Shown: positions 55,746 through 58,162 of the stretch, one piece after another
How positions within the stretch are numbered: position 1 is the stretch's first letter
How the letters are laid out: each line of letters starts with the position of its first letter
Source of the DNA: a bacterium
Lineage (GTDB): Bacteria > Planctomycetota > Planctomycetia > Planctomycetales > Planctomycetaceae
Direction: 5' to 3'
DNA length: 64,000 bases
NCBI GenBank assembly: GCA_016125225.1
Contig: WGME01000002.1
Span: 1-64,000, forward strand
Program-made: the position numbers and the translations under genes
Notes under the pieces: model-generated
What the model was told of the DNA's origin: nothing
The model's input: only the letters and a program-made list of their open reading frames with translations
The model's database searches: none

Positions 55746-56036
55746 ATGATTTATGCGAACATCTGGCTGACCGTAAAAGACCCGGCGAACGTCGACGAAA
55801 TCCGCGAACTTCTCCGCGAGCAATGCCGTCTGTCAAAACAGGAACCGGGCTGCGAACGGTTCGAAGTCTACCACTCGAAAAACGATCCCAAGACCTTCCT
55901 GCTCGTCGAACGCTGGCAAGATCAGGCATCACTGGATGCCCACCGACTGGCAACAGCTTACACCACCGTCTACCAACCAAAGGTCCTGCCGAAAGTCGAT
56001 CGCGTGGCGCATCCGTGCGAGTTGGTCGATGGTTGA
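55746..56036 (+). CDS. Antibiotic biosynthesis monooxygenase (ABM/YgiN-like)
   Basis: A 96-residue protein. MIYANIWLTVKDPANVDEIRELLREQCRLSKQEPGCERFEVYHSKNDPKTFLLVERWQDQASLDAHRLATAYTTVYQPKV is the ferredoxin-like alpha+beta barrel of the ABM family, in which E-PGC-x-x-F-x-V and E-x-W-x-x-x-x-x-x-x-x-H are conserved. Members are heme-degrading enzymes, quinol monooxygenases or of unknown function. The last three codons and the stop lie in the upstream repeat of the four-helix-bundle cassette, so the natural C terminus may have been altered (ends ...PCELVDG). Confidence 0.85.
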   Translation: MIYANIWLTVKDPANVDEIRELLREQCRLSKQEPGCERFEVYHSKNDPKTFLLVERWQDQASLDAHRLATAYTTVYQPKVLPKVDRVAHPCELVDG

Positions 56037-56053
56037 GGGTGAATGGTCGATGG
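56024..56053 (+). repeat. Left inverted repeat of the S23 cassette
   Basis: Begins ggtcgatggttgagg. It matches the complement of 56451-56480 at 24 of 30 positions and covers the last codons of the ABM gene. Confidence 0.7.
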
Positions 56054-56084
56054 AAAAGGCGCTGGCTGGCAATTGGAACATGCG

Positions 56085-56450
56085 ATGTTCGGATTCGAGA
56101 AGCTAGAGGTTTGGCAGCTTGCGACCAATTATGCCCGCGAAATGTATATCGCGACTCGACAATTTCCACCCGATGAACGTTATGGGCTCACCAATCAACT
56201 CCGACGTGCGGCCGTTTCCATCTCTGCGAACATCGCCGAAGGAAGTAGAAAATCCTCAACCAAAGACTTTAACCGCTATGTCGAAATTACATTCGGGTCG
56301 CTCATGGAGACGATCTCCCACTTGCGGATCGCGAAGGACCAGGCTTTCATCCAAGAATCAGACTACCTGCGTCTGTACGCGATGGCCGAACAGCTCGCAA
56401 AAATGCTGAGTGGCCTGCGAAATCACCTGAAACGTGACACGAATTCTTAA
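56085..56450 (+). CDS. Four-helix-bundle protein of the S23 (23S rRNA intervening) family
   Basis: A 121-residue protein from ATG 56085; an in-frame ATG at 56043 would add a poorly conserved 14 residues. FGFEKLEVWQLATNYAREMYIATRQFPPDERYGLTNQLRRAAVSISANIAEGSRKSSTKDFNRYVEITFGSLMETISHLRIAKD is typical: F-x-x-LxVWQ-x-A, FPxxERYGLxxQxRRAAxSIxxNIAEG and S-x-x-E. First described inside 23S rRNA intervening sequences, the family is also found alone in chromosomes and as Avd in diversity-generating retroelements. Function unknown. Bracketed by inverted repeats 56024-56053 and 56451-56480, so it probably inserted here as a unit. Confidence 0.9.
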   Translation: MFGFEKLEVWQLATNYAREMYIATRQFPPDERYGLTNQLRRAAVSISANIAEGSRKSSTKDFNRYVEITFGSLMETISHLRIAKDQAFIQESDYLRLYAMAEQLAKMLSGLRNHLKRDTNS

Positions 56451-56480
56451 CCATCAACTATCAACCCTAGACCATCGACC
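56451..56480 (-). repeat. Right inverted repeat of the S23 cassette
   Basis: Begins ccatcaactatcaac, directly after the stop codon of the four-helix-bundle gene and 8 bases before the ilvD start. Complement of the left repeat with 6 mismatches in 30. Confidence 0.7.
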
Positions 56481-56488
56481 TTACACCC

Positions 56489-58162
<1,674 letters not shown>

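Follow-up and report, generated by a model that had tools for sequence, protein, structure and literature searches.

Here, we describe a cassette that encodes an S23 (four-helix-bundle) protein and lies between two protein-coding genes of a bacterium of the Planctomycetaceae. The cassette is located in a 64,000-nucleotide stretch of DNA, the whole of which we refer to as the window (contig WGME01000002.1, positions 1 to 64,000). The S23 gene (56085–56450, + strand) matches PF05635 (E 2e-35; 121.6 vs. a cut-off of 33.8 bits) and TIGR02436 (E 4e-33; 113.8 vs. 24 bits), exceeding both curated cut-offs, as well as the solved protein PDB 2gsc (E 3e-19). Its reading frame can open at 56043; the alignment to homologs begins at MFGFEKLEVW, making 56085 the likelier start. 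The gene is enclosed by a left arm (56024–56053, + strand) and a right arm (56451–56480, − strand) that form inverted repeats identical at 24 of 30 positions, or 77% over 35 nt in a wider alignment. The score of this arm pair (30) was not reached in 5000 dinucleotide shuffles or at any of 1244 window positions with matching geometry. S23 is the only gene between the arms, where no transposase is found, and PF05635 is the only Pfam family that matches it.

Upstream of the cassette lies a gene for an ABM-domain monooxygenase (55746–56036, + strand; PF03992, E 9e-15; orthologs at 80% in the relatives G001 and G002) and downstream lies ilvD, which encodes dihydroxy-acid dehydratase (56489–58162, + strand; PRK00911, E 5e-244). 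The left arm covers the last ABM codons together with the stop codon (TGA, 56034–56036), and the ilvD ATG (56489) follows the right arm after a gap of 8 nt. Thus, the coordinates, the shuffles and the family matches bear out the initial annotation, which had placed the S23 gene within 30-base inverted repeats, one over the end of ABM and the other just before ilvD. The same annotation had read the lack of a Shine-Dalgarno sequence before ilvD as a sign of insertion; it is not such a sign, because G034, a relative free of the cassette, also lacks one.

The arms are not unique terminal-repeat sequence. Rather, they are degenerate tandem arrays of the heptamer TGGTYGA: the left arm reads TGGTCGA-TGGTTGA-GGGTGAA-TGGTCGA-TGG, with a first T at 56023, and the right arm is the inverted array. 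TTGGTYGA, with which the array begins, falls on C-terminal ABM codons (LVE/LVD) that are also present in the array-free relative G005 (TTGGTTGAATAA). The window genome (G000) contains three PF05635 genes, and the other two also have, as judged by eye, inverted 7-mers, TTAGCGA and GAATGTC. The third of these genes, which is divergent (L007, C32:116979), has GAATGTC/GAATGAC-type heptamers on both sides that reach into the adjoining reading frames.

This arrangement recurs at S23 genes. A search of 101 family genomes for PF05635 was positive in 76, with up to 10 copies each, and 95 S23 genes were examined with their flanks. First, the upstream and downstream flanks match each other in inverted orientation at a score of at least 20 for 81 of the 95 genes, compared to 11.6% for flanks mispaired between genes, and at a score of at least 30 for 55 genes, compared to 1.5%. 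Second, flank autocorrelation peaks at lags 7 and 14 only, with no peaks in control regions, and the lag-8 signal exceeds the lag-7 signal in 5 of 65 loci with clear arms. Third, S23 genes differ in their heptamers even when they share a genome, and none of 57 same-genome pairs of S23 genes is similar. Across S23 genes, protein similarity correlates with arm similarity (Mantel rho 0.22, p 5e-4), a correlation that fits joint inheritance of gene and arms as well as it fits specificity; a test of the arm register was biased in that the best register had been chosen. Two candidate features of the arms were rejected. The idea that left arms serve to place a stop codon in each of the three frames was not convincing (6 of 65 vs. 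2.8 expected), and an inner CAGA motif is not universal, being only 2- to 3-fold over expectation in the whole set; despite this weak enrichment, CAGA is frequent in the modules of G067 and of G001/G002.

A scan of genome contigs beyond the family gave 20 loci in Bacteroidota, Acidobacteria, Chloroflexi, Lentisphaerae, a metagenome-assembled genome (MAG) of the Methanomicrobiales, Paceibacterota and others. Inverted arms with a score of at least 24 flank 14 of 21 S23 genes of distant taxa, compared to 10% of mispaired flanks, and several Bacteroidota loci have 8-mers in place of 7-mers; MAG contigs can be misassigned, making single taxa weak, above all the archaeon, in which the downstream flank is cut off. 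Comparison thus establishes both the anatomy and its generality and, judged in this way, the cassette is one of a widespread family and not a one-off.

ABM and ilvD adjoin in many relatives, and their junction differs among them. S23 is present in G000 and in G002, where a stop breaks the reading frame; both arms are present with no gene in G026 and G012; a single array is present in G003 and in G001, where the array consists of another heptamer; and the junctions of G034 (62 bp), G005 (81 bp) and G016 (125 bp) are array-free. The occurrence of S23, gene-less pairs, single arrays and none of these at one junction indicates that different lineages hold different versions of the element. The initial annotation had a 457-base element entering between ABM and ilvD and had proposed a comparison with relatives that lack the gene. 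What stands is a self-contained cassette at an old junction that, in the three relatives just named, is short and contains no array; what changes is the view of the repeats, which are heptamer modules found mostly without the gene. The nearest congener, G001, has a different-heptamer module rather than a clean empty site. From these sequences, the mobile unit appears to be a module of ~30 to 35 nt, with the gene cassette as a larger version of it.

Arm-like modules are also dispersed without the gene. In the window genome, the window arm has matches at 21 places, with ~15 sites beyond the cassette, whereas a reversed-pattern control gave 0; the repeats are thus not confined to this junction, and neither of the two findings that the initial annotation named as refuting an insertion applies. 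At three of the loci (L002, L298 and L308), the units follow one another as in the left arm, a pattern that favors copying over independent expansion. A count of period-7 arrays in contiguous DNA gave 15 for G003 (200 kb), 6 for G000 (400 kb) and, with runs of N excluded, ~10 for G015 (400 kb), and 1, 0 and 0 for three S23-less genomes (200 kb each). The pattern GTTGANNGTTGANNGTTGA, which represents the GTTGA heptamer class, has 934 matches in 35 of 76 S23-positive genomes vs. 6 matches in 3 of 25 S23-negative genomes; at least five matches are present in 24 of 76 vs. 0 of 25 genomes (Fisher 7e-4, an optimistic value), the number of these arrays correlates with S23 copy number (Spearman 0.51), and a period-8 version of the pattern was found in 9 genomes only. 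Arms used as queries gave 7 dispersed matches in their own genome vs. 0.7 for foreign arms (p 8e-4). The clearest example comes from a single genus: in G067 and G089, the arms of the S23 cassette are of the GTGGCCA type, and there are 90 and 49 matches, respectively, to GTGGYCRGTGGYCRGTGGCCAGA, counts in which long arrays enter more than once through overlapping windows, and their congener G025 has neither S23 nor any GTGGYCRGTGGYCRGTGGCCAGA match.

The dispersed arrays have a defined form. Of 22 that were tabulated, 14 consist of four units exactly, and GA follows the array in 13 of the 22; this fixed length and the trailing GA argue for discrete, oriented modules. The modules of G001 and G002 agree in unit order with the arms that flank S23 in G002, and most also have the inner GRGYCAGA of those arms; one of the modules is a gene-less hairpin pair. 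Altogether, comparison demonstrates presence and absence at the junction as well as an association of arrays with S23, and the dispersal of arm-like modules is well supported by the sequences.

We suggest that the feature is a cassette like the S23-encoding intervening sequences (IVSs) of rRNA genes that is located outside rRNA, and that its heptamer modules spread as repetitive extragenic palindromic (REP) sequences do with their REP-associated tyrosine transposases (RAYTs), with S23 replacing the transposase. We assign this reading a probability of roughly 0.6. In anatomy, the cassette matches the 23S rRNA IVS of Coxiella burnetii, with which it is compared below. The dispersing unit would be a module of about four oriented heptamers, followed in some genomes by an inner CAGA; this module occurs singly, as a gene-less inverted pair and as the bracket of an S23 gene. 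S23, a small helical protein, would recognize its own module, either folded into a hairpin or single-stranded, in DNA or RNA and, together with host enzymes, promote copying of the module to intergenic sites, as RAYTs do for REPs and REPINs (REP doublets forming hairpins). We infer the role of S23 as agent, its binding to nucleic acid, the intermediate and the use of host enzymes. The predicted fold of the window RNA pairs the arms (z −2.35), so S23 or its arms may have a role at the level of RNA. As in REP/REPIN–RAYT systems, a gene is bracketed by an inverted short oriented repeat that is scattered in the genome singly and as hairpin pairs. By contrast, the bracketed gene encodes S23 and not a Y1 tyrosine transposase, and the repeats are heptamer arrays that vary with each S23 gene. 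The cassette also differs from a full-length insertion sequence or miniature inverted-repeat transposable element (MITE) by having no transposase between its arms.

Several observations weigh against this suggestion. Neither movement, precise excision, a target duplication nor a clean within-species empty site was seen, and the empty junctions of the relatives are too diverged. No inverted flank match was detectable for 14 of the 95 S23 genes. About half of the S23-positive genomes lack the GTTGA class, though they may hold other heptamers, and genomes with GTTGA-armed S23 genes did not have significantly more GTTGA arrays (p 0.13). The genomes are not independent, making the p-values given here optimistic. 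Moreover, an orthologous module directly past a stop codon in G067 and G089 differs by exactly one heptamer, so slippage also acts, and S23 has no known catalytic domain.

An alternative that we consider unlikely is that the cassette functions in RNA processing. RNase III would cut a stem that the arms form in the transcript, S23 would be a passenger or an RNA-binding regulator, and an old insertion would be unrelated to the scattered arrays. The pairing of the arms in the predicted fold and the arm complementarity kept in most S23 loci fit this idea. There is also a precedent in the 23S rRNA IVS of Coxiella burnetii, which has a 28-bp terminal stem, tandem GACAGAT heptamers before the S23p gene and is cleaved by RNase III (PMC4990558). 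The window cassette resembles rRNA IVSs in the size of its S23 reading frame, a unit of ~430 to 460 nt, terminal inverted repeats of near 30 nt and tandem heptamers before the reading frame. It differs in lying between the protein genes ABM and ilvD rather than inside 23S or 16S rRNA and in that window-type arms are also dispersed without the gene; its stem is a predicted one. RNA processing leaves unexplained these scattered single modules, which are present in S23 genomes and absent from an S23-less congener, as well as the gene-less arm pairs at the ABM–ilvD junction.

Slightly less probable is that a separate host or mobile process, i.e., polymerase slippage, another transposase or a reverse transcriptase, generates and spreads the arrays, with S23 hitchhiking between two inverted modules. 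Heptamer arrays are indeed known without any link to S23. MacGregor (2015) described TAACTGA heptamers in Beggiatoaceae, cyanobacteria and Bacteroidetes, often directly upstream of start codons, and proposed translational regulation without a transfer mechanism or mention of S23 (PMC4679880). The arrays described here resemble such heptamer direct repeats or short tandemly repeated repetitive sequences in having tandem 7-nt units, in being intergenic and often directly before start codons, and in occurring in distant phyla; unlike the published repeats, they bracket S23 as inverted pairs. Slippage in unit number and the few arrays in 3 of the 25 S23-negative genomes also agree with hitchhiking. 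However, S23 genes from different phyla lie between inverted arms (in loci picked by the S23 gene), the arrays track S23 presence, heptamers differ among S23 genes that share a genome, and selection maintains S23 in one close pair, in which it is under purifying selection (nonsynonymous divergence, dN, 0.015; synonymous divergence, dS, 0.188). A reverse transcriptase as the partner was rejected as not discriminating: 99 of 101 genomes have one, and no match to one was detected in G014, the genome with the most GTTGA arrays (259 matches). In G000, reverse transcriptase (PF00078) is encoded only on contigs C27 and C31 and not on the window contig, C1, in which respect the cassette differs from a diversity-generating retroelement. 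Finally, the possibility that there is no element, only chance or ordinary intergenic DNA with short repeats, might appeal to the degeneracy of the window arms (24 of 30 identities) but can be dismissed given the shuffles, the recurrence with period 7 in 81 of 95 loci and the mispairing control, which refutes it.

Avd, the accessory protein of diversity-generating retroelements, is a relative of the S23 fold and provides a lead only. In a profile search, S23 was related to the solved proteins 2gsc (XCC0516; E 7e-38) and 2rld, and Avd was not among these matches.

The association of S23 genes across many bacteria with their own 7-base word, which is also scattered in the genome, points to a hitherto unlinked mobile repeat system that has no recognizable transposase. 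A link between S23 and heptamer repeats was not found in the literature searched, which consisted mostly of open-access papers and included no bioRxiv preprints. More tentatively, and with somewhat less than an even chance of being right, S23 proteins could mobilize a large class of repeats that spans phyla and has no known transposase, each S23 recognizing and spreading its own heptamer module, which would explain the scattered arrays and the origin of the rRNA IVSs. Such a function would join two old puzzles, the S23-coding intervening sequences in rRNA and the heptamer arrays scattered in many bacterial genomes, and give a testable role to the "four helix bundle protein" family, which is widespread but has no assigned function. 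A role of S23 in moving modules would mean that a protein lacking any recognizable nuclease or transposase domain can act in mobility.

Other repeats were observed. G086, in which no PF05635 gene was found, has a long perfect octamer array of GTTGAATC (G086:C3:72077-72233). In G067, a second heptamer family, AGTAGGC ending in CAGAAA, repeatedly adjoins the GTGGCCA modules (L274, L275, L282 and L292). Other palindromic repeats adjoin heptamer modules at L107, which is the ABM–ilvD junction of G001, and at L002, L003 and L004; examples are CCGGAGCGCGAGCGACGGGCG and its inverse, GCCGCGAGGC..GCCGAGCGC and TTAGCCCCCGG..CCGGGGGC.
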